From contig NZ_JACHDZ010000002.1 in assembly GCF_014201375.1 (NCBI RefSeq), positions 496,001 to 560,000 on the forward strand: a stretch of DNA of 64,000 bases. Direction: 5' to 3'. This document shows positions 11,668-33,365 of the stretch, piece after piece. Position 1 is the stretch's first letter, and every line of letters begins with the position of its first letter. The stretch comes from Tunturiibacter empetritectus (GTDB lineage: Bacteria; Acidobacteriota; Terriglobia; Terriglobales; Acidobacteriaceae). A model generated the notes under the pieces. It worked only from the letters and a program-made list of their open reading frames with translations, did not search any database and was not told where the DNA came from. The translations under genes were made by a program, and so were the position numbers.

Positions 11668-13732
11668 CTACTCCGCGCGTAGGGCCTCCACAGGATCAAC
11701 CGAAGCAGCGCGTCGCGCGGGGAGGTAGCTTGCAAGCAGCGCAGAAACCGCGAGCACTCCGGCCACTCCTGCAAGTACGCCTGCATCCCATGGTTGCGTG
11801 CCGAACAGGAGCTTGCGCATCAGGCTCGCCGTCGCGACTGAACAGATGAGGCCTGCAAGAATGCCCATCCCTGTCAGCCTTCTCGCCTCTTTTAGAATCA
11901 GTTGGTAGACAGAGCTGCGCTGCGCGCCGAGTGCCAAGCGCACACCAATCTCCCGTGTTCGCCGGCTCACTGAGTACGCAATCACGCCATACAGGCCAAC
12001 CACTCCCAGCAGCAGAGCCATCGCCGCGAATCCACCTACAAGCCATGCGGAGGAGCGATGGAGGTATGACGACTGTGAGCGATTGATCCGGTCCTCCATC
12101 GTCTCCGCGTTGAAGGTCAGAATATCGGGATCGATCCCATGGACTGTCCCCTCCAGTGACTTCAACAGCTCCTGCGGGGCCTGGGCCGTCCTGACAATCA
12201 CGAAAAATGAATTATCAGGTTCCTGGGTGAAAGGCGTATACAGTACCGGCTGGACCTCTGCATCCAACGGCCCTTCTTTGATGTCGTCTACGACGCCTAC
12301 TATCTCTATCGCTGGTTGCGTGGCGTCATACCGTATCTGTTTGCCATCGGATCTTCTCCGGAAAAATACTTTCGCGCGAACGACTGGTTGACGATCATGA
12401 CACGAGGCTTCGAGGCATCGTCTGTCTCACTGAAGTATCGTCCCCGCGACAGCCGCGCGTACATCGTACTGAAGTAGCCTCCGCTCACCCGGCGGCTGCT
12501 CGATTCGTTGCTGCTCCCATGTTGAGGCCTCCCGATAATCTCGAATATCGTATTTCCCTCGGCGACGTTGGCTACGGAAATTTGATGCGCCACAGCCACT
12601 GATTGCACTCCCGGCAGACGGCCGCTCTCCTCCATGACACGTCGTGCCAGCGCAACGAGGAGTTCGTCCTTTGCGTAGCCTTAGTGGGGCGCCGCTAATC
12701 TCATCATCGCCAAATGTTCCGGCTGAAGACCGATATCGGTGTGCAGCAGTCGATAGAAGCTCTTGCCCAGCAACCCCGCCCCCACCAGCAACACCATTGC
12801 GGTACATAATTCGAGCATCACAAGATTCGCTCCAAGATGCCTCCACACTGCCCTGACACTGGAGCGACCGCCTTCCGTCAGTCCTTCACGAAGATCGGTC
12901 CGAGACAGGCGAAGAACAGGCGTGATCGAAAACAGAATCGCCATCGCTAGACCGACGACCGCCGCAAAACCTATCACATGCAGGCTCAGCCCCAGTCCTC
13001 TTAGGTAAGGCATATCCATCTGCATATTTACGGGCACAAGAAGAGTCAACCGCTGGATCGCCCATAAGCGGCACACACCCCGATAGAACTCCCTGCCGCG
13101 GCAAGCATGACTCCTTCCGTCACAAACTGCCGGATCAGTCGCATGCGCGACGCACCAAGGGCTCCGCGAACAGCGATCTCATGCCGTCGATTTTCTGAAC
13201 GAACCAGCATGAGGCCGGAGACGTTCACGCATGCGATCAGCAACAACAGCAGAGCCCCGCTCAACAACAGCAACAGGATCGGACGCAGGCTCCCCACAAT
13301 CACTTCGGTCAGCGGCAAGACTGTCGCCCCCCGTCCCTGATCGGAGTCCGGATACTGTTTCGCCAACTGCTGCGCGATCGAGCTCATCTCAGAGGATGCC
13401 ATCTCCAGCGTGACCCGATCGTTCAGCCGTGCGATAGACGAAAGTCCGTGGCTTCCACGATTGTTGGGATCGGAGGACTCACAAAGAGGCGTCCAAAACT
13501 CCGCCGAACCCGCGGGCGCGAAGTGAAAATCCGGAGGAAGCACACCGATAATGACGTTCGACACACCGTCAAGCGTGACGACCTGACCCAACACATCGTG
13601 CCGTTTACCGTACCTGTTCTGCCATGTGGCATAGCTCAGAATGACAGTGCGCGGCGCGCTCGGAGTATCCTCACCAGCACGAAAATCACGGCCAACAATG
13701 GGAGCCACTCCCAGGGCTTGCGCGCTTGAATT
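11668..13732 (-). pseudogene. ADOP/MacB-type FtsX-domain permease, truncated and multiply broken
   Basis: About 690 codons of an ABC-type permease with two FtsX domains and a MacB-like periplasmic domain are recognisable in three frames. Visible pieces include ILLLLLSGALLLLLIACVNV with the adjacent NRRHEIAVRGALGASR, and at the C-terminus RRTREIGVRLALGAQ and LPARRAASVDPVEALR. The coupling-helix signature occurs twice, as expected for the acidobacterial duplicated orphan permeases. Lesions: the N-terminal portion is missing before VAPIVGRDF; a base is missing in TAT(T)GG near 13055; there is an in-frame TAA at 12681-12683; another base is missing near 12325. It is not functional. The family's role is unclear, probably envelope transport. 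Confidence 0.8.
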
Positions 13733-13794: not shown

Positions 13795-14880
13795 TCATTC
13801 CAATGCAGCCCGTTGTTTTGCTAATTCAGCAGGTGCAAGCGGGAGGTATTCCCCCTGGTTCGCGACTGCCTCCTGGCCCTCGCGGCTGAGAATGTAGAGC
13901 AGAAACTCTTTGAGACGTGGCTCAATCGCCGTATGCGGTGGCCGGTTCAACTGGATGAAGATGCTGCGCGTCAGAGGGTAGGTACGGCTGCGCACGGTCT
14001 GCTCGTTGCACAACAAAAATGGACCGGCAGCAGAGATCGCGAGAGCAACCGCCTTCACGCCAGGTATTCCCTTTGCATGGGCAAGACCAGCCCACGCAAT
14101 GCCATAGCGGTCGCGAGACAGGTCCTCCATCATCTGGGCCGTTGTGCCGGCACGAAAGGTCGCTTGCTTGGCATCGGTTTCGACGTATTGTTTGAGATTC
14201 TCATTCCATGTGGTGCCGCCGTGGAAGACGGTGAGCTCGAAGAAGTTAGACATGCCGGTCGGTGCATAGCCGTACGTTTGGATGGGCTTGTCGGCCCAAT
14301 CTCCGGCGAGGCCGAGCTGACCCCAGGTGCGAATGTTCTCGGATTTCGGGCGGGCGTTGGCGGAGACCCATTTATATCCGTCGTAGGTTCCAGTACGGCC
14401 CGCGCCGAAGATCTGGTCGAGCTGCTTCATGGTCAGTTGGGTGAGTGGGTTGTCCTTGTTGACGAAGATGACCTGAGCCCATGTGCGGCCGAGGGCCTCA
14501 TAGGCTCCGGTGGCGACCGTCACCTGGAATGGTCCGTCGTTTTGGAAGACCTCCGCAAAGGAGAGGAACTCGGTGAGCACTGGTTCGCGGCCGTTAGGCG
14601 CAAGATCGGCTGCACCTGCTTCGAGCGAGCCGATCGCGGCATCGCCGCTGAGTAGTGAGTCATCAAATGTGATGTCGGGCTGAAGTTTCTTGAAGCCCGC
14701 TTCCCAGGCCGTCATGAGGCCAGCAAGGGCGCTGCCAGAGTTGCGGATGGTGCCAGACACCTGCTGTCGTGGCGAGTATGCTGGCAGACCATCCATCCCG
14801 CTGTTGGACGGTCTGCCCTGGCCGAGGAGCGATGGTGTAACCGCGAGGAGAATGCATGCCATGCAGCTTTTACTGTTCAT
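13795..14880 (-). CDS. PstS-like periplasmic substrate-binding protein
   Basis: 361 residues, ATG at 14880 with AAAGGGG upstream and a signal peptide ending near LLGQG. The fold is the type II periplasmic binding domain used by phosphate-binding PstS: SGTIRNSGSALAGLMTAWE at the N-terminal lobe, a phosphate-loop-like LLSGDAAIGSLEAGAADLA, VIFVNKDNPL, and a C-terminal LKEFLLYILSREGQEAV segment. It lies 31 bp downstream of the TonB receptor on the same strand. Two further PstS-like genes lie on the other side of that receptor, and no Pst permease or ATPase genes are present. It may hand a ligand delivered through the receptor to the inner membrane, or store it; phosphate is a guess from the family. 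Confidence 0.8.
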   Translation of the reverse strand: MNSKSCMACILLAVTPSLLGQGRPSNSGMDGLPAYSPRQQVSGTIRNSGSALAGLMTAWEAGFKKLQPDITFDDSLLSGDAAIGSLEAGAADLAPNGREPVLTEFLSFAEVFQNDGPFQVTVATGAYEALGRTWAQVIFVNKDNPLTQLTMKQLDQIFGAGRTGTYDGYKWVSANARPKSENIRTWGQLGLAGDWADKPIQTYGYAPTGMSNFFELTVFHGGTTWNENLKQYVETDAKQATFRAGTTAQMMEDLSRDRYGIAWAGLAHAKGIPGVKAVALAISAAGPFLLCNEQTVRSRTYPLTRSIFIQLNRPPHTAIEPRLKEFLLYILSREGQEAVANQGEYLPLAPAELAKQRAALE

Positions 14881-14911
14881 GATCGCGGTACCCCTTTCAA
14901 CGTATGAACGC

Positions 14912-17900
14912 TTAGAAGACTACTTTGACTGCTAGCTGGAGTTGACGGGAGGAGTTGGCCGTGGGGCTCGTGAGCACGCCTGCGGTCGATAGCGGAGCGA
15001 TGGTGGTTGTGCCTGTCGCTAAGGGTACCGCGGGGGCGCTGTAGATCTGTTGATCGTTGTTATTCGGTGGGGTAAAGTTCGTGTGGTTGAGCACGTTGAA
15101 ATACTCCACCCGGAACTGGACATTGAACTCGTCCGATATCTTTCTGATGGCGTTGTTCTTGAACAGAGAGACGTCAAGATTGGCAAAGCCCGGCCCGGTG
15201 ATGATGTTGCGGCTCGCGTTTCCACGCAGATAGGGGTTCGGTGTTCCCTGGCCGCCGGGGAAAGGGAAACAGGCCACATTCACGTAGTTGAGGCCCGAGG
15301 TCTTGAAGCTATGATTGACCGGATCACAGCCCGGAGTCCGGTCGGGATAGTCCCATGGATCGGTGCCCAACTTGCCCAGTGGATCGCCGCCGATGAGCGG
15401 TGTAAAGGGAGTTCCGGAGCTCTGTTTGTAGATACCGCCAAGCTGCCATCCGTTGCGTGCGATCGCGGTCAGTCCCTGCACATTCTTGTCTTCGGGTAGG
15501 TTGAAGATGGCGCTCAGAGCGAAGATTTTGCCGATGTCGAAATCCGACCGGCCATAGCTCAGCGAAGGTGCGAACCAGTCCAGCGAGGGCACAGAGTTGC
15601 CAAATGCGTCGCCTGCGATCGTTGCGGAGTTATTGTCAAGGCTCTTGCCGTACGTGAAGGAGGCTTTAAGTTGGAGGTTCTGTTTCACCCGAGCGGTGAT
15701 GTCGGTAGCGAGCGCGTTGTAGGAGGATTTGGCGAACCACCAGAGCGCACGAATGTCCCCCGCGTTGGGATTGACTTGCGTGCCGGAAGGCTTGCCTCCC
15801 GCCGAAGGCCACAGATAGCCACCCTGCGCAGTGCGTGTCGGCAGAACGACGTTGGCATCCTCCACACGGAAGGGCTGATGCACGCCCCGCGAGCCGACGT
15901 AGCTGGCGGAGAAGGTGATGTCTCGCGCGATCTCATGCTGTAAGCCGAAGTTCCATTCCATGACATAGTTGCGCGCGGGGTGCGGATCGATATAGGCCTG
16001 ACCGAGCCCCGAAGGAGTTGTCGTCAGTTGTTGTTGCACGAAGTTGGGGTCGGCACCAATCTTTACCGCGGGATTGGTAGTAGTGCCAGCCTCGAAGTAG
16101 GGCGCTGTGAGCACGGACAAGATCTCGAACTGGTAGAGCAGCGGCAGCACATCATAGAGACCGAATCCGGCGCGCACAGAGGTCTTATGGTCCTTGAAGG
16201 GATCGTAGACGAAGCCCGCACGCGGCTCGAAGTTCTTATAGGTCGGGTTAGAAAAGTAGGGATTGCCGAGATGTGGAGTTGCATCTGTAACCTGCTGTAG
16301 CGCGGACAGCTTACCCGCGACCTCTGTAGGTACATTGATCATCTCGTACCGCAGCCCGAGGTTGAGTGTGAGCCTCTGGGTGAAATGCCAGTCGTCCTGA
16401 ACGTACCCGCCTACAAGAAACTGTCGCAGGTTGCGCGGCGTAAGTGTACTCGCAATCCCCGCTGTTAGATTTTTGGGCGTGTTGCTGGTGAAGCCAGCCG
16501 TGCTGCCATACTTGAAGAGGCCGTTCGGATTGCTGAGCGCCAGAATGTTGTTCTGCAGCCGTTCAAACGCAGCACCAAACTTGATGGTGTGCTTGCCCAA
16601 AGTCAGGAAGGCGTCGTCATAACCCTGAAATGTGGTGAAGCGGAAGAGATAGGCTGGCGACGAACCGACACCACCGACGATACGATCGATCCCCGGAACA
16701 TTGATGCCAGGAGCAGTGCGACCCGGAATAAGCCCGAGCGAAGTATCGGAGGCCAGAGGGTTAATCGCGGAGGCACCGATATTGTTCGCGATGTTTTGCC
16801 GGTTCAGGCCGAACCGAACTGTATTGATGAAGTTCGGACTGAAGATGTGGTTTTCCTCCAAGATGAGGTCCTGGCGGCGCGTCTTTGAAGAGACCGTCGT
16901 GATGTTCTGCGCATCTCCGATGGTGAAGGGTGTGTTATCGAACAGGTAGGTGCCGAAGATGCTGTCCTTCGTTGAGATCTTGTGGTCGATACGTGTAGTG
17001 AAGAAGTTCTCGGTGACAAGCTCCTGTTTGATGAAGGTGTAGGTCGCAAGATCTCCCGTCTGAGCAGTCGTCTGGTTCGAGACCGGCATCAGCGGGATGT
17101 ATTTCAGCAACCCAGGATCTGTGATGCGTGCGCGTGCTGCGTTCGAAAGAACATGCACAGTCGCCGTGTTGGAAAGGGCTTGCTGGATGGCCTCGAAGTC
17201 ACCGAAGAAAAAGGTGCGGTTCCGAAAGATGGGGCCACCCGCAGACCCGCCATATTGCTTCCGGCTGAATGGTGGGATTACCGCGCCATCAAAGTAGTTC
17301 CTGGCATCGAGTGCGCTATTGCGGAAAAAGCCGTAACCGTTGCCGTGAAGCTGGTTTGTGCCATTCTTGGTGACCGCATTGATCACGCCGCCGGAGGTCC
17401 TGCCGTATTCGGCCGAATAGTTGCTGGTGATGACGGAGAACTCGCCAATCGCGTCGACACCGAGGTTGGTGCCGATGACGGACCCTGGACCTGAGTTGGC
17501 ATAGTCGTTGATGCTGATGCCATCGAGGCGGTAGTTATTCTGCGAGGGTCGTCCACCGGAGATGGAGATCTGCGCCCCGAAGCCACGATTGCCGCGGCCT
17601 GCACCCTGGTCGAAGCCGATCTGGGTCGAGACGGTTGCGACTCCAGGTTGCAGTGCTGCAAGATCGGTCCAACTCCGTCCGTTGAGTGGAAGGTCGCGGA
17701 TAGCCGCTCCGGTGACGACCGCACTGAGAGCGGATGAGGAGAGTTCGACGGAGGGAGGGGTATCGATAATCTCAATCTTCTGATCGACGGTACCTACGTT
17801 GAGTGAAAGCGGAAGACTGATCTGATCTCCAACGGAGAGGGTAAAGTTCGTGCCCTTCGGAGCAAATCCAACGGCCGATACCTTGATCAGGTAGTTGCCA

Positions 17901-18127
17901 GGAAGCAGGTTCGGCACCGTATAGAAGCCCTCCTGATTGGCCACGACGATAGCGGTCACGTTGGTCGAGAGATTGGTGATCGAGACCTTGGCCTTGGGGA
18001 TGAAGGCGCCAGCTTGGTCGGTGACGGAGCCGGCTATGGTCCCGCCTGCGACCTGCGCGCGGAGGGCGGGACTGAGTGCAAGACAGAGAGAAAGAATCAG
18101 GACAACGTGCAGCGACTTCATGTTCAT
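14912..18127 (-). CDS. TonB-dependent receptor (Oar-like) associated with PstS-like proteins
   Basis: 1071 residues. The start at 18127 (ATG AAC ATG) has GAGGAG seven bases upstream and leads directly into a signal peptide ending at ALRAQ. The carboxypeptidase-regulatory-like domain (GTIAGSVTDQAGAFIPKAKV), the plug motif DLPLNGRSWTDLAALQPGV, DGISINDYANSGPGSV and a long barrel ending in LQLAVKVVF follow. It is a clear paralogue of the receptor at 24936-28208, sharing the GR(S/D)WT plug type and SRQ-rich C-terminus, and is less like the one at 1153-4719. The 11-bp repeat site at 18264-18279 is 137 bp upstream of its start. With the downstream PstS-like gene it probably forms an operon for outer-membrane uptake of a phosphorus-containing or similar anionic ligand (inference). 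Confidence 0.9.
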   Translation of the reverse strand: MNMKSLHVVLILSLCLALSPALRAQVAGGTIAGSVTDQAGAFIPKAKVSITNLSTNVTAIVVANQEGFYTVPNLLPGNYLIKVSAVGFAPKGTNFTLSVGDQISLPLSLNVGTVDQKIEIIDTPPSVELSSSALSAVVTGAAIRDLPLNGRSWTDLAALQPGVATVSTQIGFDQGAGRGNRGFGAQISISGGRPSQNNYRLDGISINDYANSGPGSVIGTNLGVDAIGEFSVITSNYSAEYGRTSGGVINAVTKNGTNQLHGNGYGFFRNSALDARNYFDGAVIPPFSRKQYGGSAGGPIFRNRTFFFGDFEAIQQALSNTATVHVLSNAARARITDPGLLKYIPLMPVSNQTTAQTGDLATYTFIKQELVTENFFTTRIDHKISTKDSIFGTYLFDNTPFTIGDAQNITTVSSKTRRQDLILEENHIFSPNFINTVRFGLNRQNIANNIGASAINPLASDTSLGLIPGRTAPGINVPGIDRIVGGVGSSPAYLFRFTTFQGYDDAFLTLGKHTIKFGAAFERLQNNILALSNPNGLFKYGSTAGFTSNTPKNLTAGIASTLTPRNLRQFLVGGYVQDDWHFTQRLTLNLGLRYEMINVPTEVAGKLSALQQVTDATPHLGNPYFSNPTYKNFEPRAGFVYDPFKDHKTSVRAGFGLYDVLPLLYQFEILSVLTAPYFEAGTTTNPAVKIGADPNFVQQQLTTTPSGLGQAYIDPHPARNYVMEWNFGLQHEIARDITFSASYVGSRGVHQPFRVEDANVVLPTRTAQGGYLWPSAGGKPSGTQVNPNAGDIRALWWFAKSSYNALATDITARVKQNLQLKASFTYGKSLDNNSATIAGDAFGNSVPSLDWFAPSLSYGRSDFDIGKIFALSAIFNLPEDKNVQGLTAIARNGWQLGGIYKQSSGTPFTPLIGGDPLGKLGTDPWDYPDRTPGCDPVNHSFKTSGLNYVNVACFPFPGGQGTPNPYLRGNASRNIITGPGFANLDVSLFKNNAIRKISDEFNVQFRVEYFNVLNHTNFTPPNNNDQQIYSAPAVPLATGTTTIAPLSTAGVLTSPTANSSRQLQLAVKVVF

Positions 18128-18263
18128 AGGAATCTCCTCGTAGGGTGCGCTTGCATGGGGCGCGTCGCGTTGCAACGTACTGTGATGTCGTCGGAGGTCT
18201 GGCGACGCGAAAGTTTCGTATTTTGGAGCGCGCCTATCAGGAACCATCAGAGCGAAAGAAGTC

Positions 18264-18279
18264 TGAATTCCAGGTGAAA
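18264..18279 (-). promoter_or_regulatory. 11-bp direct-repeat operator, site 1 (TonB receptor/PstS-like operon)
   Basis: On the plus strand TGAAT starts at 18264 and TGAAA at 18275, exactly 11 bp apart; read toward the receptor this is TTTCACCTGGAATTCA. The spacing matches tandem half-sites of OmpR/PhoB-type regulators. It belongs to a family of seven similar sites in this window. It lies in the gap between the receptor and the divergent PstS-like genes, so either side could be affected. Confidence 0.5.
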
Positions 18280-18404
18280 AAATGTTCATGGTTAAATGCT
18301 TGAACCTCGTTCGAGAAAGAAGATAGAGTACGCGGGGTGTATTGGGATCGATACAGCAACGATGCACAACAAAATCTCTGAGAGACTCACGAGGCGCACG
18401 ACAC

Positions 18405-19439
18405 ATGAGGGGCAGAACTATAGCTCGAAAGAGCGTATGCAGGCAGGTACCTGCCCTGTTACTCGGTCTCAGCGCCTTCGCGCTTGGCCAGTCGCAGATA
18501 TCGTCCGGCCCCGCAGAGTCCCGGGTCCTGCGCATATGGGGTGCCGGGGTTCACGGCGAGTCTCCCTTTCTTCCAGTACTCGTTTTGCTCGAGGCCAGCT
18601 ATCAGCAGCAACATCCTGAGATCCGCTTTGAGCACCATCTTTATGGCGATGACTCCGCGCTCGGAGGACTCTACTCGGGTGCTGCTGATCTGGCGTTGAT
18701 GGAGCGCGAACCGTCCTACATCGAACTCGACGGCTATCAACAGGTGCTCACGCGCGAGAAGCCCTTCATACGCACGGTTCTGCTCGGCGCGGGGCGCAGA
18801 CCAGGACATAGCTCGCCTCTTGTCATCGTCGTTAACCGCAAGAACCCACTGCAGAAGCTTGCGCTGGATCAGATCGACGCGATCTTCAACGCGGAACGGT
18901 CATCGCTGCCAAAGTCGAGGCGCGGCCCCATTCTTCTGTGGAACGAACTCGGCCTGGAAGGCGCGTGGCATAAGCGTGCGCTGCATCCGTACGGTTTTCA
19001 CGCACAGAGTCCGGAGTCGCAGACGCTGGTGGCCGAGGCGATGGACGGAGTAGTTCGGTGGTCGTGCGCTTTCGTCGCCGTTGGAACGCCAGCAGGAGGA
19101 CAAGAGGCTGCCGCCCGCGTGGCCGAGAGAGTTGCTCAGGACCGCTATGGCGTGGGTGTCACGACTTTAGACGTAGTTACGTCCGCAGTGCGTGCTGTGC
19201 CGATCGTGGATACGGAGGGAACCCCGCAGTTGCCTGTCGAGAGCTCGTTGCTGAATGATCGCTACGCACTGCGGCGCGGAGTTACAGCGCTCTTCCGCGA
19301 CCGCCCCGGAGTCGTAAATGAAGAGGTTCGCCGCTTTGTGGACTATATGGCGAGTGATGAGGCGGAGTCGGTCATCCGCGCGGACGGAAGCTACCTTCCC
19401 CTCCGGTCACATGCGCAGCAGGCGGGAGGGAAGCGATGA
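18405..19439 (+). CDS. Divergent PstS-like periplasmic binding protein
   Basis: 344 residues from the ATG at 18405; a TTG at 18342 is possible but would push the signal peptide inward. The basic N-terminus RGRTIARKSVCRQ is followed by a hydrophobic signal ending at ALGQS. The binding-protein fold is weaker than in its neighbours but keeps VLRIWGAGVHGESPFLPVL, YGDDSALGGLYSGAADLALM, LVIVVNRKNPL and a C-terminal DYMASDEAESVI with DGSYLPL. Its stop overlaps the next gene (ATGA), so the two PstS-like proteins are co-translated. It is divergently oriented from the TonB receptor. Sequence drift in the binding loops suggests a different ligand or a partner role rather than simple redundancy. Confidence 0.7.
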   Translation: MRGRTIARKSVCRQVPALLLGLSAFALGQSQISSGPAESRVLRIWGAGVHGESPFLPVLVLLEASYQQQHPEIRFEHHLYGDDSALGGLYSGAADLALMEREPSYIELDGYQQVLTREKPFIRTVLLGAGRRPGHSSPLVIVVNRKNPLQKLALDQIDAIFNAERSSLPKSRRGPILLWNELGLEGAWHKRALHPYGFHAQSPESQTLVAEAMDGVVRWSCAFVAVGTPAGGQEAAARVAERVAQDRYGVGVTTLDVVTSAVRAVPIVDTEGTPQLPVESSLLNDRYALRRGVTALFRDRPGVVNEEVRRFVDYMASDEAESVIRADGSYLPLRSHAQQAGGKR

Positions 19440-20500
19440 GGGCATATACCTTGCGGTGCTTAAGGACGGTTGCGTGTGCGGCGGCGATGATCATCTGCGG
19501 ATCCGTGCTGGTCGGACAACAGCCAGCGCCGGGCGGCCAGCAGAGTTTGGACCTCTCGGCTTTGCCCACTTACGTGCCTACCACTATGGTGACCGGAACG
19601 ATCCGTAACTATGGCAACAATTACATCCCGGCGCTAATGAAGGAGTGGGAGGATGGCTTCGGGAAGATGCAACCCGGAGTCACCTTCGAAACCAGCCTTC
19701 CTGGGAGCGAGGCGGCCATGGCAGGTCTTTACGGAGACATCGCCGATCTCGCCTTCATCGGGCGGGAAAGCTACCCCACTGAGGTGCATGCCTTTGAGGA
19801 AGTGAAGGGGTACGCACCACTCGGCATCGAGATTAGCTCCGGCAGCTTCATGACCCCGCACAAGACCTTCGCTCTCATGGTCTTCGTCAACAAGGAAAAC
19901 CCTCTCGCGAAGACGAATCTGCCCGAACTGATGAGGATCTTCGGCTGTGGATCGAACGCCATCACCGAGTGGGGCCAACTGGGTTTGACGGGCGCCTGGG
20001 AACATCGGCCCATCCATGTCTATGGGTATGCGCCCACCACCGGGATGGCTCGATTCTTCTCCAGTGCGGTGCTCGGTGAGAACGGACGCTGGACCGCCTC
20101 CATGCATGACTTCGACAACGGGCATCGGCCGGACGGCGAGGTTATCAATGCCGGTGTCTATGTACTCCGGGCGCTCGCGGCCGATCCAGACGGCATCGCG
20201 TATGCAAACTTCCTCTATACGACCCCCGAAGTTCGGGCGCTGGCCCTTGCCTCCACCAGCGGCTCGGGAATCCAGTATCATGAGCCGACCCGCGACAATG
20301 TTTTTTCTAGGCTGTACCCGCTTACGCGGTTTACTACAGTCTTTTTGGATCGTAAGCCAGGAGAACCCGTGAAGCCCGCCCTCAAGGAGTTCCTGCGTTA
20401 CATCTTAAGCCGCGACGGGATGCAGGCAGTCGTCAACGACGGTGCCTACGTTCCTTTGAATGCAATGCAACTCGAAAAAGAGAGACACAAGCTAGATTAG
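19436..20500 (+). CDS. PstS-like periplasmic substrate-binding protein
   Basis: 354 residues; the ATG at 19436 overlaps the stop of the preceding gene by four bases. The signal peptide ends near VLVGQQ. Features shared with PstS are VTGTIRNYGNNYIPALMKEWE, LPGSEAAMAGLYGDIADLAF, LMVFVNKENPL and LKEFLRYILSRDGMQAV. The closest relative in the window is the protein at 13795-14880, with which it shares the N-terminal lobe, the WGQLGL-GAW segment and the VYGYAPTTGM-type hinge. Three such binding proteins surround one TonB receptor with no ABC transporter genes nearby. Ligand unknown; phosphate or another oxyanion is the family default. Confidence 0.8.
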   Translation: MRAYTLRCLRTVACAAAMIICGSVLVGQQPAPGGQQSLDLSALPTYVPTTMVTGTIRNYGNNYIPALMKEWEDGFGKMQPGVTFETSLPGSEAAMAGLYGDIADLAFIGRESYPTEVHAFEEVKGYAPLGIEISSGSFMTPHKTFALMVFVNKENPLAKTNLPELMRIFGCGSNAITEWGQLGLTGAWEHRPIHVYGYAPTTGMARFFSSAVLGENGRWTASMHDFDNGHRPDGEVINAGVYVLRALAADPDGIAYANFLYTTPEVRALALASTSGSGIQYHEPTRDNVFSRLYPLTRFTTVFLDRKPGEPVKPALKEFLRYILSRDGMQAVVNDGAYVPLNAMQLEKERHKLD

Positions 20501-20642: not shown

Positions 20643-22037
20643 TCAATCATCTTCCATTGCGGGGAGCTTGAGGACGACAAGTTTGTCCTGCATCATGTCA
20701 TGCATGGTGTAGGGAATGCCACCGATGCCGAAGCCCGATTGCCTGCGTCCCGCGAAGGGCATCCAATCGGTACGGAAGGCGGTGTGATCGTTGATCATCA
20801 CGGCGGAGGCGTCCAGCAGACGTGCCGCCGCGAGCGCCGCGTCGATGTCGGTCGAGAAGACGGAGGCCTGGAAGGCGAACGGAAGGCTGTTGGCGCGGGT
20901 GATCGCATTTGAGAGCTCGCGGAAGCCATAGACGCACGCCACTGGGCCGAAGATCTCGCTGGTCGAGACGAGCGAGTTGGCGTGGGGTTCGACCAGAAGG
21001 GTGGGCTGGAAGTGGCGGGTGCCGATGCGCGTCCCGCCGACGGCGATCGTGGCGCCCTCTTGGACCGCCTTTGCGACCCAATGCTCGATGCGCGTGACCT
21101 CTTTTGGCGCGATGAGCGGTCCGACCTCGGTTTTGGGTAAAGTGGGATCGCCCACGCGAAGCTGCCGGATGCGTTCAGCGAGGCGTTCGACAAACTCCGT
21201 TTTCAGATCGTGATGCACGAAGATACGCTGGACCGAAACGCAGACCTGCCCAGCGTGATAGCAGGCCCCTTTCGTGAGGGGCTCGAGGATGATGTCGAGG
21301 TTCGCGGAACGGTCGACGATGACCGGCGCTGCGCCGCCGTGCTCCAGAGCAAATCGGGCACCGGGCGCAAGCTGCGAGCGCAGGTGCCAGCCCACCCGGG
21401 CCGATCCGATGAAGCTCAGGAAGGCAACTCGCGGGTCGGTGGCGAGACTCTCGGAGTGAGCGTTTTCGTCGATCAGGACCGCCTGGCACCAAGGTTCAGA
21501 GAGCCCAGCCTCTCGCACCAGTTGTATGAAGTGCAGGCAGGTGAGCGGCGTCATTGCGGAGGGCTTCACCAGTACCGGACAGCCCGTTGCAATGGCTGGG
21601 AGCACTTGGTGAACGATGAGATTCAGCGGATGGTTGAAAGCCGAGATCGCCACTACCGGTCCGACGGGTTCGCGGGTGGTAAAGGCCCAGCGATTGGCCG
21701 AGGCCGGGGTGAGGCCCATAGGGATCTCGGCACCCACGAGATGCTCGATGTGTGAGGCCGCCCACTCGATACTGTTGATGGCGCGCGCGACCTCTACTTG
21801 AGCATCCGTGATTGGCTTGCCGCCCTCGAGTGCGATTCGCAGGGCGAAGGTTTCGCGATCCCGGTCAACTAGAGCGGCAAGCCGTTTGATGATCTCGATG
21901 CGTCGGTAGGGAGGTAACCAGGCTGCGCGATCAGCGAAAACCCGTGTGGCCCGGTCGAGCATGGCCTCGATCTCGGCGGGCGTATGGGGGGTGATCTCGG
22001 CGATGAGCGCGCCGTCGTAGGGTTGGGTGATGAGCAT
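20643..22037 (-). CDS. NAD(P)-dependent aldehyde dehydrogenase
   Basis: 464 residues with the complete aldehyde dehydrogenase core: Asn135 in SAFNHPLN, Glu232 in ALEHGG and catalytic Cys266 in HAGQVCVS, followed by the SEIFGPV motif and a C-terminal INDHTAFRTDWMPFAGRRQSG segment. It oxidises an aldehyde to the acid in the cytoplasm; the group includes lactaldehyde and succinate-semialdehyde type enzymes, but the substrate is not readable. It starts 18 bp after the acetolactate-synthase-like gene on the same strand, so both are probably one transcript under the triple 11-bp repeat at 23833-23859. The pairing suggests the two enzymes make and remove a 2-keto-acid-derived aldehyde (inference). 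Confidence 0.85.
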   Translation of the reverse strand: MLITQPYDGALIAEITPHTPAEIEAMLDRATRVFADRAAWLPPYRRIEIIKRLAALVDRDRETFALRIALEGGKPITDAQVEVARAINSIEWAASHIEHLVGAEIPMGLTPASANRWAFTTREPVGPVVAISAFNHPLNLIVHQVLPAIATGCPVLVKPSAMTPLTCLHFIQLVREAGLSEPWCQAVLIDENAHSESLATDPRVAFLSFIGSARVGWHLRSQLAPGARFALEHGGAAPVIVDRSANLDIILEPLTKGACYHAGQVCVSVQRIFVHHDLKTEFVERLAERIRQLRVGDPTLPKTEVGPLIAPKEVTRIEHWVAKAVQEGATIAVGGTRIGTRHFQPTLLVEPHANSLVSTSEIFGPVACVYGFRELSNAITRANSLPFAFQASVFSTDIDAALAAARLLDASAVMINDHTAFRTDWMPFAGRRQSGFGIGGIPYTMHDMMQDKLVVLKLPAMEDD

Positions 22038-22055: not shown

Positions 22056-23753
22056 TCAGTCGATGCGGCTGGGACGTGCGCTGAGTTCGTCGATGAGGAC
22101 GCGCCGGTTCTCGGTGTAGTCGATCGGCACGATGACGAGGTGCACACCGCCCTGCTGGAATGCGGCTTCGAGCGCCGGAACCAGGTCATCGGCGGTGTCG
22201 ATGCGGGTCCCAGTCGCGCCGTAGGCCGCCGCGTAGCGGACGAAATCGGGGTTGTTGAAGGTGAGGCCGAAGTCGGCAAAGCCTTCGGCCTCCTGCTTCC
22301 AGCGGATCATGCCGTAGCCATGGTCTTCAATGAGGAGCACGACGAGGTTCAACCCAAGACGGATGGCGGTTTCGAGGTCTTGCGAGTTCATCATGAAGCC
22401 ACCATCGCCACACACGGCCATGACGCGCCGTTCGGGATAGAGCATGGCTGCCATCATGGCGGAGGGGAGGCCTGCGCCCATGGCGGCAAGAGCATTGTCC
22501 AGCAGGATGGTGTTAGAGATGTGAGTCCGGTAGTTGCGTGCGAACCAGATCTTGTACATGCCGTTATCGAGGCAGAGGATGCCGTTCTCCGGCATGACGG
22601 CGCGCACGTCGGCGACGATGCGCTGCGGGGCGAGCGGAAAACGCGGGTCGTCCGCGCCTTCGGCAACCCGCTTCAGCACCAGCGACTGCACCTTACGGTA
22701 GTAGGAGAACTCGTGCTTCGTACCTTCGAGCGCATCGGCCAACCGCGTCATGCTGTCGCCGACGTCGCCGATGACCTCGACATGCGGGAAGTAAATTTGG
22801 TCGATGTCGGCGGGGTTGAAGTCGATATGGACAACCTGTGGCCCGGTGGACTGCATGAGGAAGGGTGGCTTCTCGACCGTGTCGTGACCGACGGCGATGA
22901 TCAAGTCGGCATGCCCGCTCGCGAGGTGAACGTAATCTCCACTCGAGAGCGCGGCGGTGCCGAGATAGAGGTCGGAGTTGCCGTTTACCGCTCCCTTGCC
23001 CATCTGAGTGTTGAAAAAGGGTATGCCCATACGGTGCATGGCCGCGGAGAGCGCGGGGGCGAGACCGGGCCGGTTGGCTCCGCCGCCCAGCACGATGAGC
23101 GGGCAGGTGGCCTCGGTGATGCGGCAGGCGGCCTCATGGATGGCGTTCTGCGCAGCGACGGGCCGGAAGGAGGGGCTGACGGGTACCAGCGTGTCGGAAG
23201 CGACGATCTGCGCGGCGATGTCCTCGGGAAGCTCGAGATGGACGGGGCCGGGGCGCTCAAACTGGGCGACTCGGAAGCCGTCACGCACCAGCGTGGCGAT
23301 GTTACGCGCATCGATGACCTGACGCGCCGACTTGGTGAGTGGCCGCATCATGGCGACGGTGTCGATGATCTGGAAGCGCGCCTGGCGACTGTGCCGGATC
23401 GGCTTCTGCCCAGTGATCATCAGCATGGGCATCCCGCCGAGCGAGGCGTATGCTGCGGCGGTGACGAAGTTGGTGGCGCCCGGCCCCAGCGTGCTAAGGC
23501 AGACGCCGGGCTTGCCCGTAAGTCGGCCATAGGTTGCCGCCATGAATCCGGCGACCTGCTCATGCCGGGTCACGACCAGCTGGATGCTGGAGTGGTGAAG
23601 CGATTCGAGCAGGTCGAGATTCTCCTCGCCCGGCACGCCAAAGATGTACTCGACGCCTTCGTTTTCAAGTGCTCGCACGAAGATGTCGGAGCCATTGAGC
23701 TCCGGCAGGATAGGGGAGAGCGTCGTCTGCGGCGTGGGAAGCGTGGTGGACAT
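22056..23753 (-). CDS. Acetolactate-synthase-like thiamine-diphosphate enzyme
   Basis: 565 residues from the ATG at 23753, preceded by GAGG at six bases; an ATG at 23765 would add four residues. The three thiamine-diphosphate enzyme domains are visible: the N-terminal pyrimidine-binding domain with the catalytic Glu in VVTRHEQVAGFMA, a central domain (VILGGGANRPG-like), and the C-terminal diphosphate domain with GDGGFMMNSQDLETA. The motif continues as EDHGYGMIRWKQ, which keeps the second magnesium-ligand Asp. It resembles the large, catabolic-type acetolactate synthases acting alone; no small regulatory subunit gene is next to it. It likely joins or decarboxylates pyruvate. It is the first gene before the aldehyde dehydrogenase. 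Confidence 0.85.
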   Translation of the reverse strand: MSTTLPTPQTTLSPILPELNGSDIFVRALENEGVEYIFGVPGEENLDLLESLHHSSIQLVVTRHEQVAGFMAATYGRLTGKPGVCLSTLGPGATNFVTAAAYASLGGMPMLMITGQKPIRHSRQARFQIIDTVAMMRPLTKSARQVIDARNIATLVRDGFRVAQFERPGPVHLELPEDIAAQIVASDTLVPVSPSFRPVAAQNAIHEAACRITEATCPLIVLGGGANRPGLAPALSAAMHRMGIPFFNTQMGKGAVNGNSDLYLGTAALSSGDYVHLASGHADLIIAVGHDTVEKPPFLMQSTGPQVVHIDFNPADIDQIYFPHVEVIGDVGDSMTRLADALEGTKHEFSYYRKVQSLVLKRVAEGADDPRFPLAPQRIVADVRAVMPENGILCLDNGMYKIWFARNYRTHISNTILLDNALAAMGAGLPSAMMAAMLYPERRVMAVCGDGGFMMNSQDLETAIRLGLNLVVLLIEDHGYGMIRWKQEAEGFADFGLTFNNPDFVRYAAAYGATGTRIDTADDLVPALEAAFQQGGVHLVIVPIDYTENRRVLIDELSARPSRID

Positions 23754-23832
23754 CGATAGCCTCATGGCGCCTGTTCCGGAGCGGCTGGAAGTTTGGGGCG
23801 CAGGTGTTCCCAGCCTTTATCGACCCGCAGGA

Positions 23833-23945: not shown

Positions 23946-24049
23946 TCTCAAGCGGCCATCGTTCAATACGGCATAGGATGTATGCGTGGCCGGTTTTGGA
24001 CGGTCCCCGCAGCATCACCATCCAAACCTTCACTCAGTCCGGGAGAAAC

Positions 24050-24583
24050 ATGAAAACAGCAACCGCCGCAATATGTGCCATGACCGTGAGTCTCTTTAGT
24101 CTCGTTCCCGCCTTCGCACAGGAGACGCGCGAACAGGCTATTTCTGCGATGCGCAAGGTCGAAGCCAAAGAGATGGACCCGACCTACACCACGCCCTCAC
24201 CCTTCGCGATGAAGCTGACGCAGGAGGCGCTAGCGAAGCATCCGGAGGTGATCCTGATCGCCATTCATGCAACGCCGCCGGGCCACAAGAATGTCATCGT
24301 GGCGTCGAACTTCGGCCGTATCGGCAAGATCGGCGATGAGGATGATATGCGCTGCATCAACACCGGTAAGAGCAACCTGGAGGTGGACAAAACCGGACGC
24401 CACTTTGAAGATGAACTGGTGCTTCAGGATGCGTCGGGCAAGACCATCGGTGCCCTCGGCGTTGTCTTCAACTACAAGCCAGGCGACGATAAGCTCGCGT
24501 TGGGCAAGATCGCCAACGAGATCCGTGATGAGATGAAGTCGCAGTTGACGACGAAGGCCACTCTATTTGGCCCGATAAAGTAA
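24050..24583 (+). CDS. Secreted protein of unknown function, possibly Cache-like
   Basis: 177 residues; the ATG at 24050 is preceded by GGGAGA and begins a clean signal peptide ending LVPAFAQ. I do not recognise the family with certainty. The mature part contains VILIAIHATPPGHKNVIVAS, GRIGKIGDEDDMRCI and a C-terminal DASGKTIGALGVVFNYKPGDD, reminiscent of a single extracellular Cache/PAS-like ligand-binding fold but with no signalling domain attached. It would be a free periplasmic protein. Its promoter region carries an 11-bp repeat site almost identical to that of the response regulator at 33426, so it is probably a regulon member. It is divergent from the acetolactate synthase operon. Confidence 0.7.
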   Translation: MKTATAAICAMTVSLFSLVPAFAQETREQAISAMRKVEAKEMDPTYTTPSPFAMKLTQEALAKHPEVILIAIHATPPGHKNVIVASNFGRIGKIGDEDDMRCINTGKSNLEVDKTGRHFEDELVLQDASGKTIGALGVVFNYKPGDDKLALGKIANEIRDEMKSQLTTKATLFGPIK

Positions 24584-24935: not shown

Positions 24936-27900
24936 TTAGAAGAGGACCTTGAGGGCGAACTGGGCCTGCCGGGAGCTGGTTGCGGTGGGGCCTACGAGGA
25001 CGCCGGCGGTTGCGGCGGATAGGGCTGCTCCGCTGGCGTTGAAGAGCTGGGTGCCAGCCTTCGGTGGTGGGCCGTAGTTGGTGTGGTTGGCGACGTTGAA
25101 AAGTTCGGCGCGGAACTGGAGGTTGATGGGGTGCTCCCAGGGCTTAAAGGTGGTGTTCTTGACGAGCGAGGTATCGAACTCATTGAGGTTGGGAGCGATG
25201 ACGGAGTTGCGTCCCGCGTTGCCGAGGTGGGTGTATCCGGTGACCGGGTTGTAAGTGGGGAAGGCGAAGCAGGCGGTGTTGAGGAACTGGCGGTTCATCG
25301 AGTTGAAAGACTTGACCGGATTACCGGTGCAGCCGGGTCCCTTCAGACGGTCGGGAAACGCGAAGGTGTCGGCGCTCTTGAGGTTGAGAGGGTCACCACT
25401 GATGAGCGGGGTGAGCGGTTCGCCGGTGGAGAACTGGAAGATGCCTCCCCACTGCCAGCCGTTAGCGAGATAGGAAACACCATTGCCTTCTTTGACCTTG
25501 GGTAACTCGTAAAGATAGTTGACGACTACGTTATGAGCGACGATGAAGTCGGAGATGGCGCGGCGGCGGTCGGGTGCCCAGGTAGGCAGGCTGGAGACGG
25601 AGTTGGCGAAGGTGTCTCCGAAGGTGGAGGAGGAGCCGTCGTCGATGGACTTGGCCCAAGTGTAGGAGACGCCAAGCTGAGTGCTATGGCTGAAGCGCTT
25701 GTTGAGGCTGGCCTGCAGCGAGTTGTAGTGGGAGTATCCGGACATGAAGACAGCGCTTATCTGGCCGACGTTGGGATTCAGCTTTTGCGAGGTGAGGGTC
25801 GCGGTGGACACGCAGGTAGTGCAGTTAGGGCCGTAGAAGCCGTAGCCGATGGAGTCCTTGACTGGTTGCACGGTGTTGATATCGTCCACGCGGTAGGGAA
25901 GGTGAATGCCGCGGGAGCCAGCGTAGCCGACCTGCAAGGTGAAGTCGTAGGGCAGGGTCTGCTGGATGTTGAGGCTGTACTGCTGGACGTAGCCGCGCTT
26001 GGGGTGCTGGTCGGCATAGGCGTAGCGAAGGCCGACCGCGCCTGCTGCGTTCTCCTTGGTGTAGGCGTTGTTGGGGAAGTCTCCGGAGGCGAGTGCGGTG
26101 ATGTTGCCGAGTAGGAGATACGGCGCGGTGAAGATGGACAGGCCCTCATAGAGATAGTTGAGGGTCTGGGTGTCGTAGATGCCGTAGCCGCCGCGGACGG
26201 AGGTATTGCCTTTACCGAATGGATCGTATGCGAAGCCGACGCGAGGTGCGATGTTGAGGAAGCTGGAATTAGGGAAGTAAGGGCTGCCGAGACGCCGCGC
26301 CGTGGCCGACACGGCGGGCAGGACGGCGATGCGGTTGGCGGTCTCCGTGGGCACGCTGACGGGCTCGTAACGCAGGCCGAGGTTGAGGGTGAGGTTGTTG
26401 AAGATGCGGTAGTTGTCGGTCAAGTACGCGCCATAGACGGACTGACGCAGGTCGCGGGGCGAGGTGCCCTGCTGGATGGGGCTGTTGAAGCTGGTTGGAG
26501 TTGCGCTGAGGAAAGTGGCGAGGCTCGAAAAGATGAACTGTCCATTGGGATTGGAAGTGCCGAGCTGGTTGTTCTGGAGACGCTCGAAGGCGAAGCCGAA
26601 CTTGATGGCGTGCTTGCCGTGGGTGAAGTTGACGTCGTCGTAGAACTGGTAGGAGTTGAGATGGAAGTCGAACTCTCCGGTGGCTTTGAGTCCGCCCTGG
26701 AAGTTGGAGACGCCGCCGATGTTGATGAGTCCGACGGGTAGTCCTGGGACGAAGCCGAGGCTGGTGTTGGAGGCGGCGGGGTTGATCGCGGACAGTGTGG
26801 TGGGTGCGATGGAGACGACGCGGCTGAAGCCGAACTTGGCTGAGTTGACCAGGCTGGCGCTGAAGACATGGCTCTCGTCGACGGTGGCCAGGGTGCGTCG
26901 CGCCAGGTTGCCGGTGATGCGGATGTTGAAAGGATCGGGCGATTCAAGATCGCCGCGATCGTAGAAGTAGGTTCCGGTGAGCGAATCGTTGTCGGTGATC
27001 TTGTGATCGAGCCGCCCGGTGTAGAAGTTCTCGTGGCTGATCTGCGGGGTGTTGAAGGCGAAGGTGCCGACGTCGGCAGTGGGGCTATCGATGACGCCGG
27101 TGTTGGGCAGCGGGTAGAAGGTGAGGTAGGGTGTTACGGCTGGGTTGACGGTGTTCTGCACCTTGGAGGCGCAAGCTGCGTTGATGCAGAGCAGACCGTT
27201 GCGTGCATCGGAGTTGGGTACGCTGGAGGTGATGCTGATGCCCTGGTACTGGCGTAGACCTTCGTAGTCGGCGAAGATGAAGGTGCGATCGTGGAGGATG
27301 GGACCACCGGCGGATGCGCCGAACTGGTTGCGGCGGAACTCGGCGATGGAGTTGGGGACGTCGAACTGATTGCGGGCGTCGAGTGCGCTGTTGCGGATGA
27401 ACTCGTAGACACTGCCGTGGAGTTTGGAGGTGCCACCGCGGGTAACGGCGTTGATGATGCCGCCTGCGGTCTTGCCATAGTCGGCGGAGGCGTTGGAGGT
27501 GACGACGGAGAACTCCTGAATGGCATCGACACCGAGGTTGGAGCCGATGACGCCGCCAGGGCCGCCGTTAGAGTAGTCGTTGATGCTGATGCCGTCGACG
27601 CGGTAGTTGTTCTGCTGCGGACGTGCGCCACCGACGGTGAGTTGGTTGCCGACGCCACGGTTGGCGCGCTGGTTGGTGACGGCGACGGCGGGCTGGGTAC
27701 GGACAGAAGCGACGCCAGGTTGGAGGTTGGCGAGTGAGGTCCAGTCGCGACCATTGAGCGGCAGATCGACGATAGTGCGCTCGTCGACGACTGGCATGTT
27801 GGTGGAGGTGACGAGATCGATGCTGGGCGGCGTGCTGTTGACGACGATCTTGACGTCGACCGCGCCGATTTGCAGGGCGAAGTTGACCTCCTGCTGCGCT

Positions 27901-28208
27901 CCGACGTTGAGCTGCACGTCGTTGGCGGTCTGGGTGGAGAAGCCGGTGACCGATACCGAGACGGTGTAGGGGCCGATCTGCAGATTGGGAACCGAATAGA
28001 AGCCAGTGGCGCTGGTCACGGATTTGGTGACGATGCCCGTAGCCGTATCGGTGATGACAACGGTGGCGTTGGGTACGACCGCGCCGTTGCTGTCGGTGAT
28101 GGTTCCGGCGATGGTTCCGGTGGAGACCTGCGCGAACGAGACGACTGCCGTGGCCAGCAGCAGCAAAGCGAAGAGAGAAAATCTGATTGGTGTGAAACGC
28201 GTGTTCAT
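24936..28208 (-). CDS. TonB-dependent receptor (Oar-like), second regulon member
   Basis: 1090 residues; ATG at 28208 with GAGGGG upstream and a signal peptide ending VVSFAQ. It has the carboxypeptidase-regulatory-like domain (GTIAGTITDSNGAVVPNATV), plug motifs DLPLNGRDWTSLANLQPGV and DGISINDYSNGGPGGV, and a barrel ending RQAQFALKVLF. It is paralogous to the receptor at 14912-18127 over the whole length. Upstream on the same strand lie a YncE-like propeller and an AtoE-type transporter. Its own 11-bp repeat site is 95 bp before the start. It imports an unknown ligand across the outer membrane. Confidence 0.9.
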   Translation of the reverse strand: MNTRFTPIRFSLFALLLLATAVVSFAQVSTGTIAGTITDSNGAVVPNATVVITDTATGIVTKSVTSATGFYSVPNLQIGPYTVSVSVTGFSTQTANDVQLNVGAQQEVNFALQIGAVDVKIVVNSTPPSIDLVTSTNMPVVDERTIVDLPLNGRDWTSLANLQPGVASVRTQPAVAVTNQRANRGVGNQLTVGGARPQQNNYRVDGISINDYSNGGPGGVIGSNLGVDAIQEFSVVTSNASADYGKTAGGIINAVTRGGTSKLHGSVYEFIRNSALDARNQFDVPNSIAEFRRNQFGASAGGPILHDRTFIFADYEGLRQYQGISITSSVPNSDARNGLLCINAACASKVQNTVNPAVTPYLTFYPLPNTGVIDSPTADVGTFAFNTPQISHENFYTGRLDHKITDNDSLTGTYFYDRGDLESPDPFNIRITGNLARRTLATVDESHVFSASLVNSAKFGFSRVVSIAPTTLSAINPAASNTSLGFVPGLPVGLINIGGVSNFQGGLKATGEFDFHLNSYQFYDDVNFTHGKHAIKFGFAFERLQNNQLGTSNPNGQFIFSSLATFLSATPTSFNSPIQQGTSPRDLRQSVYGAYLTDNYRIFNNLTLNLGLRYEPVSVPTETANRIAVLPAVSATARRLGSPYFPNSSFLNIAPRVGFAYDPFGKGNTSVRGGYGIYDTQTLNYLYEGLSIFTAPYLLLGNITALASGDFPNNAYTKENAAGAVGLRYAYADQHPKRGYVQQYSLNIQQTLPYDFTLQVGYAGSRGIHLPYRVDDINTVQPVKDSIGYGFYGPNCTTCVSTATLTSQKLNPNVGQISAVFMSGYSHYNSLQASLNKRFSHSTQLGVSYTWAKSIDDGSSSTFGDTFANSVSSLPTWAPDRRRAISDFIVAHNVVVNYLYELPKVKEGNGVSYLANGWQWGGIFQFSTGEPLTPLISGDPLNLKSADTFAFPDRLKGPGCTGNPVKSFNSMNRQFLNTACFAFPTYNPVTGYTHLGNAGRNSVIAPNLNEFDTSLVKNTTFKPWEHPINLQFRAELFNVANHTNYGPPPKAGTQLFNASGAALSAATAGVLVGPTATSSRQAQFALKVLF

Positions 28209-31141: not shown

Positions 31142-31512
31142 CTAGACGGCCTCCGTGATGATCCGTTGCATGTGGCGCTTGCGGGTAAGCCGAAAGAAGA
31201 CGACCGGCGTAACGATCAACGAAAGGAGCGTGGAGATCAGCAGATCGCCGATGACCGCGATTGCCAGTGGCTGCAGCATCTGTGAGCCGGCGCCAATCGC
31301 GAAGGCCGACGGCAACATGCCGGTGATGGCGGCCAGCGCCGTCATCAGGATGGGCCGCAGCCGGCGGCGTCCAGCGTGCAGTATCGCATCCTCGGGGGGG
31401 ACATGCCCTCGTCCCGGAAGCGAGCTTCTGCATCGAGCAGCAGCATACCGTTCTTCGCGACGATGCCGATGACCATGATGAGTCCCATGAACGAAGCTAC
31501 GCTGAAGGGTTG
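31142..31512 (-). pseudogene. RND efflux permease, C-terminal remnant
   Basis: Only the last roughly 120 codons of an AcrB/HAE1-type RND permease survive. FMGLIMVIGIVAKNGMLLLD, the loop DEGMSP, GRRRLRPILMTALAAITGMLP and GSQMLQPLAIAVIGDLL are in two frames, so there is also a frameshift near 31400. The sequence ends abruptly at about 31512, where it meets a TolC fragment running the other way. The original gene was more than 3 kb. Confidence 0.8.
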
Positions 31513-33238: not shown

Positions 33239-33279
33239 GGTGGCTCCTGGGACACAAGGAGTAGCTTGTTGATGCAGGA

Positions 33280-33306
33280 TGAGTTCTGCTTGAAGTCCGT
33301 ATGAAA
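33280..33306 (-). promoter_or_regulatory. 11-bp direct-repeat operator, site 6 (YncE-like gene)
   Basis: TGAAG at 33291 and TGAAA at 33302 are 11 bp apart, with TGAGT at 33280 in phase. It lies 42-68 bp before the YncE-like start and is oriented toward it. Confidence 0.55.
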
Positions 33307-33365
33307 ATGTGTTCATGTAGGAGGCGCATTTGGCAGACAGATGCCGTTGATCGGGATGAATAGCT

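Follow-up and report, generated by a model that had tools for sequence, protein, structure and literature searches.

The closest described relative of the binding proteins considered here is PstS, the binding protein of the PstSCAB phosphate system, which relies on an ATP-binding cassette (ABC) permease. A second point of comparison is ferric-pyoverdine uptake, which involves an FpvG-type PepSY reductase, the binding proteins FpvC and FpvF, and the ABC permease FpvDE. Binding proteins that work with a secondary carrier have precedent in TRAP, TTT, and TAXI-GltS (PMC12344293). In TAXI-GltS of Bordetella pertussis, the binding protein is described as translationally coupled to, or fused with, the secondary carrier GltS, itself said to resemble CitS of the 2HCT family (PMC12344293). 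For the TTT/Bug solute-binding proteins, 434 copies have been reported in Rhodoplanes, and lineage-specific duplication was argued (PMC5994714). The locus described here lies in a 64,000-nucleotide stretch of Tunturiibacter empetritectus DNA (contig NZ_JACHDZ010000002.1, positions 496,001 to 560,000), referred to as the window, where a TonB-dependent receptor gene is flanked by three genes for PstS-like proteins, A, B, and C, with no pstCAB genes. It is interpreted, at a little under even confidence, as one case of a patchy cross-phylum module for the capture of organic acids supplied by the receptor, perhaps in the form of metal chelates, and passed on to secondary carriers. The observations underlying this interpretation are the gene content and order, the absence of pstCAB, the PstS fold of protein C, the loss of a phosphate-binding signature, and the recurrence of the neighbor set. 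The four central genes were as follows.

13795 to 14880, minus strand: PstS-like protein A, 361 amino acids, 31 bp downstream of the receptor gene and on the same strand
14912 to 18127, minus strand: Oar-type TonB-dependent receptor, 1071 amino acids from ATG 18127 (OMP_b-brl_4, 532.8 bits; Plug; CarboxypepD_reg)
about 18405 to 19439, plus strand: PstS-like protein B, the most diverged of the three (PF12849)
19436 to 20500, plus strand: PstS-like protein C, 354 amino acids (PF12849)

This order agreed with the first-pass annotation of the sequence, in which A was placed on the receptor strand and B and C were read as co-translated in the other direction; genes B and C overlap by a 4-bp ATGA at 19436 to 19439. 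The open reading frame (ORF) call for the receptor began at 18535; judged by the signal peptide in the sequence, the start is the ATG at 18127. For gene B, the probable start is ATG 18405 and not the called TTG 18342. With the corrected starts, the divergent gap between receptor and gene B is about 277 bp. The annotation had also listed PstCAB and PhoU genes as absent, and no pst gene was found beside A, B, C, or the receptor. The pst operon of this genome lies elsewhere, with the sole PstB above the TIGR00972 cut-off at C8:115301, beside a strong PF12849 match at C8:118262. A further strong PF12849 protein (L031:7997-9091, at C3:672107; 156.9 bits) is encoded apart from both the operon and the cluster.

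Proteins A, B, and C passed Pfam PF12849 (PBP_like_2) with 31.7, 32.3, and 55.8 bits (cut-off 27), their sole Pfam match at an E value of 0.001, and none matched the DctP or TctC families. Against the PstS family TIGR02136 they scored 79.4, 48.2, and 89.3, far short of the cut-off of 206.6. Identity to A was 29% for B and 40% for C. Protein C, the one modeled, gave a mean predicted local distance difference test (pLDDT) score of 91.8 and the PstS fold, a type II binding-protein fold. Its match to PDB 4omb, "Phosphate binding protein," had a Foldseek E value of 3.2e-30 and a Z score of 29.7, with 5.7 Å over 293 residues and 30% identity across residues 38 to 354. This entry ranked above the first structure other than a phosphate-binding protein, the tungstate-binding TupA (Z score of 14.6).

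Proteins from loci without pstCAB (array proteins; n = 170) were aligned with PstS proteins from pst operons (n = 62), leaving out sequences below 150 bits or spanning fewer than 280 profile positions; genomes G432 and G437 contribute a large share of the array set. The five-feature phosphate signature was complete in 62/62 operon proteins and in 0/170 array proteins. Its elements, among them Arg97, Arg181, and Ser-Gly-Thr, are presumed to be phosphate ligands from PstS structures and from their invariance in the operon proteins. Arg181 was kept in 9 and Ser-Gly-Thr in 8 of the array proteins, never both together, while the Arg97 column was kept in 113 and also in A, B, and C. At position 181, A, B, and C carry Tyr, Phe, and Tyr, with TGM, SPE, and TGM in place of Ser-Gly-Thr, which bears out the earlier statement that the three differ in their ligand loops. 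Trp162 and several Gly, Pro, and Asn positions invariant in operon proteins were still fixed in the arrays; positions 181, 182, 185, and 187 were among the most variable, along with some outside the ligand loops (the array set for these variability figures included four operon PstS proteins, L090 to L093). From the alignment, the pocket loops of the array proteins appear to have diverged from phosphate binding. Two long PstS-like proteins of 805 and 829 amino acids (L035:977-3394 and L193:7909-10398) apparently contain two binding domains per chain.

In the phylogenetic tree, the operon proteins formed one clade (support, 1.0) with no array protein inside it. Paralogues of a single genome were scattered, with 58 sampled G432 copies falling in 45 clades and 16 G273 copies in 16; the paralogues therefore look like old lines common to several phyla and not like fresh duplicates. 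Protein C grouped with members from G273, G030, and Roseateles (support, 1.0), and protein B with members from Roseateles (0.91) and G030 (0.82).

Array-type PstS-like genes without pstCAB were found in 21 genomes or plasmids of the Acidobacteriota, Eremiobacterota, Opitutaceae, and Proteobacteria, Azoarcus and Sphingomonas paeninsulae showing one gene each in the stretch examined. A profile of the three proteins matched 9 of 61 genomes (the window's own, G000, and relatives), with several copies in G000, G030, and G051. In a scan of the class, 36 of 399 genomes matched, with several strong copies in these three and in G273 and two weak ones in G139. G030 and G273 belong to the genus of the window, G051 to another family. 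There were 11 profile matches within about 33 kb in G030, four in G051, and about 19 PstS-like ORFs within about 43 kb in G273. The family of Sphingomonas gilva had matches in 169 of 298 genomes, nearly all of them weak (<50 bits); besides S. gilva, the sole strong match was in G682 (296 bits plus two pieces), and G463 had a pair near 105 bits and G650 a piece of 87 bits. Copy numbers in the class and family scans are minima, with 5 to 6 candidates scored per genome. Among the best 80 of 517 relatives in a scan of named genomes, 14 had arrays or array fragments without pst genes (Eremiobacterota, Opitutaceae/Lacunisphaera, Sphingomonas/Sphingomonadales, Roseateles, Nevskia, Betaproteobacteria, and Deltaproteobacteria), and 66 had operon PstS or were unclear. 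Eleven of the array genomes carried 9 to 93 matches each, the maximum being in the 3.0-Mb Opitutaceae metagenome-assembled genome G432, and members were also present on megaplasmids of Novosphingobium, Paraburkholderia, Azoarcus, and Sphingomonas. This rare and patchy occurrence suggests that the array genes have spread horizontally. No relative of protein C was found in one scan of viral contigs.

A local loss of pstCAB from a phosphate system, with the genes still linked in close relatives, had been named in the first-pass annotation as an outcome that would speak against its proposal. This was rejected, since no locus with at least two PstS-like genes matched PstB or PstC and the genome has its own pst operon elsewhere. 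The conserved neighborhoods of receptor and PstS-like genes that it suggested seeking in acidobacterial genomes were present in G030, G273, and G051 and recur across phyla, which supports its core idea that PstS-fold proteins here are uncoupled from an ABC permease and associated instead with a TonB receptor. Four other Acidobacteriota genomes (loci L038, L040, L071, and L072) have a three-gene set of a single-copy PstS-like gene, a TonB receptor, and PepSY_TM, which may be the minimal form.

Beyond gene C, the window contains the following genes.

20643 to 22037, minus strand: aldehyde dehydrogenase (PF00171, 401 bits), a neighbor of uncertain membership
22056 to 23765, minus strand: acetolactate-synthase-like thiamine pyrophosphate enzyme (NF006187, 808.7; cut-off 509), a neighbor of uncertain membership
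23957 to 24583, plus strand: secreted protein whose PAS/GAF-like domain belongs to no named family (profile matches, model, and Foldseek); the ORF call begins at GTG 23870
24936 to 28208, minus strand: second Oar-type TonB receptor (OMP_b-brl_4, 599.5 bits)
28523 to 29569, minus strand: YncE-like beta-propeller protein 1 (PF21783/PQQ_2 weak and TIGR03866 78.8 bits, all below cut-offs)
29588 to 31006, minus strand: AtoE-type short-chain fatty acid carrier, with no second copy in the genome (PF02667, 375.6 bits)
32210 to 33316, minus strand: YncE-like beta-propeller protein 2 (cluster genes of G030 and G273 matched at 432 and 461 bits; no NCBIfam match)
33426 to 34106, plus strand: OmpR-type response regulator (TIGR01387, 250.3 bits, below the cut-off of 279.2)
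33959 to 35626, plus strand: sensor histidine kinase, start uncertain, its ORF overlapping the regulator (TIGR01386, 238.9 bits, below the cut-off of 292.55; relatives in the G030 and G273 clusters)

Beside the cluster, at 11668 to 13708 on the minus strand, MacB/FtsX-type permease matches fell in two separate ORFs with more ORFs between them, and this stretch looks like a broken gene. A short minus-strand ORF at 31142 to 31546, with 95 bits to an RND permease within the G030 cluster, is perhaps a permease remnant.

Relatives of the window receptors, propellers, and kinase were found in the PstS-like clusters of G030, G273, and G051, and relatives of the carrier in two of the three. Recurrence was tallied over loci of 10 kb or longer, 38 with arrays and 54 with operons, excluding 13 repeats of named loci, shorter loci, loci with a single PstS-like gene, and operon loci lacking PstB or PstC plus PstA. 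A second tally over the 21 genomes or plasmids pools all loci per genome, so that rows with more DNA are favored; among the rows are four partly covered plasmids and two short contigs. TonB receptors were present at 15 array loci (18/21 genomes or plasmids), PAS/GAF-like domains at 13 (12/21), YncE-like propellers at 11 (12/21), carboxylate carriers or a carboxylate-type binding protein at 10 (10/21), PepSY_TM-like genes at 8 (8/21), and citrate-lyase-like genes at 2, and all were absent from the 54 operon loci. Weaker MFS matches showed the reverse (0/38 versus 5/54). Kinases, present at 13/38 array loci (13/21 genomes or plasmids) versus 27/54 operon loci, were accordingly rejected as an array-specific partner. 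ATP-citrate-lyase-like genes adjoin PstS-like genes in G435 and on the Paraburkholderia plasmid. A 36-kb locus on a Polymorphobacter megasporae plasmid (L198) carries the PAS/GAF-like domain, a YncE-like gene, receptors, a 2HCT carrier, and citrate-lyase-like genes with no PstS-like match, which shows that the PstS-like genes can be separated from the other members of the set. NMT1-like proteins, a second kind of orphan binding protein, were seen in 7 array loci (L184:7905-9044 and six others). Gene clusters of XoxF with YncE and TonB genes have been described in a lanthanide context (PMC10875860).

The carriers in or beside arrays belong to unrelated families: SCFA_trans at the clusters of G000, G030, and G273; DctA in G030, Nevskia, and S. 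gilva (615, 645, and 684 bits; cut-off 513); TcuC in G051 (730; cut-off 445); CitMHS in S. gilva (605; cut-off 259.7), with a PF03600 match of 120.5 bits in Novosphingobium resinovorum; and 2HCT in Lacunisphaera (479.5). Some lie inside arrays, and in Nevskia the DctA gene is 89 bp from a PstS-like gene. When the seeds were restricted to carriers, matches among the 66 non-array named loci were confined to MFS proteins (26 to 148 bits) at 5 loci. Within the genus, the AtoE-type carrier was found in 3/3 cluster genomes versus 0/24 other members, and among 30 genomes scanned it was confined to these three. Each has a full-length copy inside its cluster, and G273 also has a short fragment elsewhere.

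By its plug, barrel (OMP_b-brl_4), and carboxypeptidase-like N-terminal domain, the first window receptor is of the Oar type, and the second is 45% identical to it. At least 55 Oar-type matches were counted in each of the four Acidobacteriota cluster genomes, the counts being minima with 54 candidates scored. Queried with the window receptor, G051 gave its cluster receptor first (938 bits, ahead of 324 for the next match), and in G273 cluster receptors took the first two places (739 and 691 bits, ahead of 460). In G030 the cluster receptor was split (387 plus 284 bits versus 422 for another receptor), and in G000 the second window receptor (867 bits) nearly tied with the non-cluster C2:460083 (861 bits). 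By sequence, the cluster receptors thus tend to resemble one another more than most receptors of each genome, a preference that is not exclusive in the window's own genome. An 11-bp repeat operator had been reported in the receptor promoter but was not reproduced: positions 18128 to 18345 contained no direct repeat, only two short inverted pairs, and the 300 bp upstream of the receptor held 8 pairs of 11-mers (≤2 mismatches) versus a mean of 10.5 in 60 shuffles. No 11-mer (≤1 mismatch) was common to this region and the promoters of the two other window receptors tested. One trial operator pattern matched 3 times versus 1.88 expected.

The secreted protein at 23957 to 24583 had no Pfam or NCBIfam match. 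Its model (pLDDT, 80.7) gave weak Foldseek matches, mostly to GAF, PAS, and similar sensor folds (best E value, 6.8e-5). Two copies of the domain precede the TonB receptor plug in the Azoarcus and Paraburkholderia plasmids (L194:16991-19969 and L195:6349-9267). A link of this domain, with its predicted sensor-like fold, to the arrays is a lead only.

Taken together, the binding-protein arrays, the outer membrane receptor, and the interchangeable carboxylate carriers point to organic-acid capture. In the proposed scheme, the TonB-dependent receptor would move an organic-acid ligand, possibly a metal chelate, across the outer membrane, and the secreted PstS-fold proteins, with their diverged pocket loops, would capture it in the periplasm. 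At the inner membrane a secondary carboxylate carrier would replace PstCAB, of the AtoE type in this genus and of the DctA, TcuC, CitMHS, or 2HCT type elsewhere, while the two-component system, the YncE-like propeller, and the PAS/GAF-like domain would probably report on the ligand or assist it. Three elements of the scheme are inferred: that the ligand is a carboxylate, that receptor, binding protein, and carrier pass it on to one another, and that there is a sensing function. A more far-reaching version, considered rather doubtful, is a new class of envelope-spanning uptake free of an ATP pump, in which TonB receptors would load arrays of re-purposed PstS-fold proteins that differ in the carboxylate or metal-carboxylate they are tuned to and that feed the same interchangeable carriers (AtoE, DctA, TcuC, CitMHS, and 2HCT); the PAS/GAF-like domain, in some cases part of the receptor chain, would gate the ligand or report on it.

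Several observations weigh against organic-acid capture. The query seeds for both tallies were drawn from array loci, which biases the counts and contrasts upward. The carboxylate count of 10/21 includes one case with a TRAP binding protein (DctP) only and one with an SDF fragment (UBA1936), and none of the carrier families named above was found near the examined arrays of G432, the genome with most matches. No chain joining a PstS-like domain to a carrier was seen, and in the window 9 kb separate the AtoE-type carrier, which adjoins the second receptor, from the PstS-like genes. PF02667 occurred in 83/399 class genomes, 80 of them other than the three cluster genomes; a class-wide link of AtoE to arrays was therefore rejected, and the link holds only within the genus, where it may reflect shared descent. 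Other transporters also lie near arrays, including RND pumps and MFS proteins of other kinds, among them a sialate/aromatic-acid-type protein in G273 and a PgtP-like protein (109 bits) near one G437 gene, both below cut-offs, as well as what are, judging from their sequences, presumably amino-acid-permease-like and EamA-like proteins. Finally, a phosphodiesterase/nucleotide-pyrophosphatase-type gene lies beside PstS-like genes in G438 (L180:999-2462; 81.9 bits), with a relative in the G273 cluster (L070:6529-8019).

PepSY_TM reductases and a siderophore-type receptor make acquisition of iron or another metal the main rival, though a distinctly less probable one: the receptor would import a metal-carboxylate or siderophore chelate, the reductase would free the metal, and the PstS-fold proteins would bind either the chelate or its organic moiety. 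In line with this are the PepSY_TM-like genes of 8/21 genomes or plasmids, the S. gilva receptor (TIGR01783, 314; cut-off 223.5), an Azoarcus reductase in which PepSY_TM is fused with NAD-binding and 2Fe-2S domains, and single-copy relatives in the PstS-like/receptor/PepSY set of G021, G024, G249, and G364. The single-copy relative in G027, however, lacks that set, the clusters of the window and of G030 yielded no PepSY gene, the array receptors of the Acidobacteriota are Oar-type and not siderophore-type, and carboxylate carriers can do without a metal. The metal and organic-acid readings overlap in the case of a metal-carboxylate ligand. A role in sensing, with transport secondary, is improbable; here the binding proteins would present ligands to the sensor kinase and the many paralogues would widen the range of compounds. 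A kinase is present in 4/4 Acidobacteriota clusters, the paralogues are old and diverse, as the scatter of the G432 copies shows, and the PAS/GAF-like partner resembles a sensor fold, but operon pst loci have kinases no less often, and the receptors and carriers favor uptake.

The phosphate-type ligand suggested in the first-pass annotation was weakened. Scavenging in which phosphate, arsenate, or organophosphates are still bound and passed to a distant PstCAB or a phosphatase would be in keeping with the modeled fold of protein C, the widely kept Arg97 column, the phosphodiesterase-type genes at two loci, and the PgtP/GlpT-like MFS protein of G437. It is nevertheless very improbable given that Arg181 and Ser-Gly-Thr never occur together in the array proteins, that the TIGR02136 scores are so low, that the array loci lack any pst gene, and that the recurring inner membrane neighbors are carboxylate carriers. 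Slightly less probable again is the absence of any joint function, with the PstS-like genes as accidental neighbors in receptor-rich acidobacterial genomes. The receptor counts make chance adjacency plausible for one locus, and on the Polymorphobacter plasmid most of the other genes occur with no PstS-like gene among them; on the other side, the neighbor set recurs in other phyla and is absent from the 54 operon loci (with the seed bias stated above), and the cluster receptors are close to one another.

Protein C shares its fold and Pfam family with PstS, whereas the array proteins lack pstCAB, carry an incomplete phosphate signature, and lie beside TonB receptors. In ferric-pyoverdine uptake, a TonB receptor, a PepSY_TM reductase, and periplasmic binding proteins likewise occur together, but with the ABC permease and without arrays. 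The TTT/Bug proteins, as far as the cited account goes, are similar in their very many paralogues near kinases and varied transporters and in their organic-acid theme (PMC5994714); they differ in Pfam family, and in the present arrays the paralogues of one genome are scattered over the tree and TonB receptors recur. The account of TAXI-GltS describes a binding protein paired with a secondary carrier other than its customary partner (PMC12344293), while the arrays show adjacency only, several carrier families, and an outer membrane receptor. No published account of PstS-like arrays without pstCAB was found among the matches listed, as judged by title and the start of the abstract, with preprints and most subscription papers outside the coverage.

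PstS-like genes are usually read as phosphate uptake. A branch with up to 93 matches in a 3.0-Mb genome appears to have moved away from both phosphate and the ABC pump, and annotations of phosphorus scavenging based on such genes may therefore be mistaken. The candidate proteins are small and soluble, which makes the claim easy to test. If the carboxylate reading is true, one more binding-protein fold would join the short list of those that work with secondary carriers, and a periplasmic step would be offered for TonB receptors whose route beyond the outer membrane is unknown.

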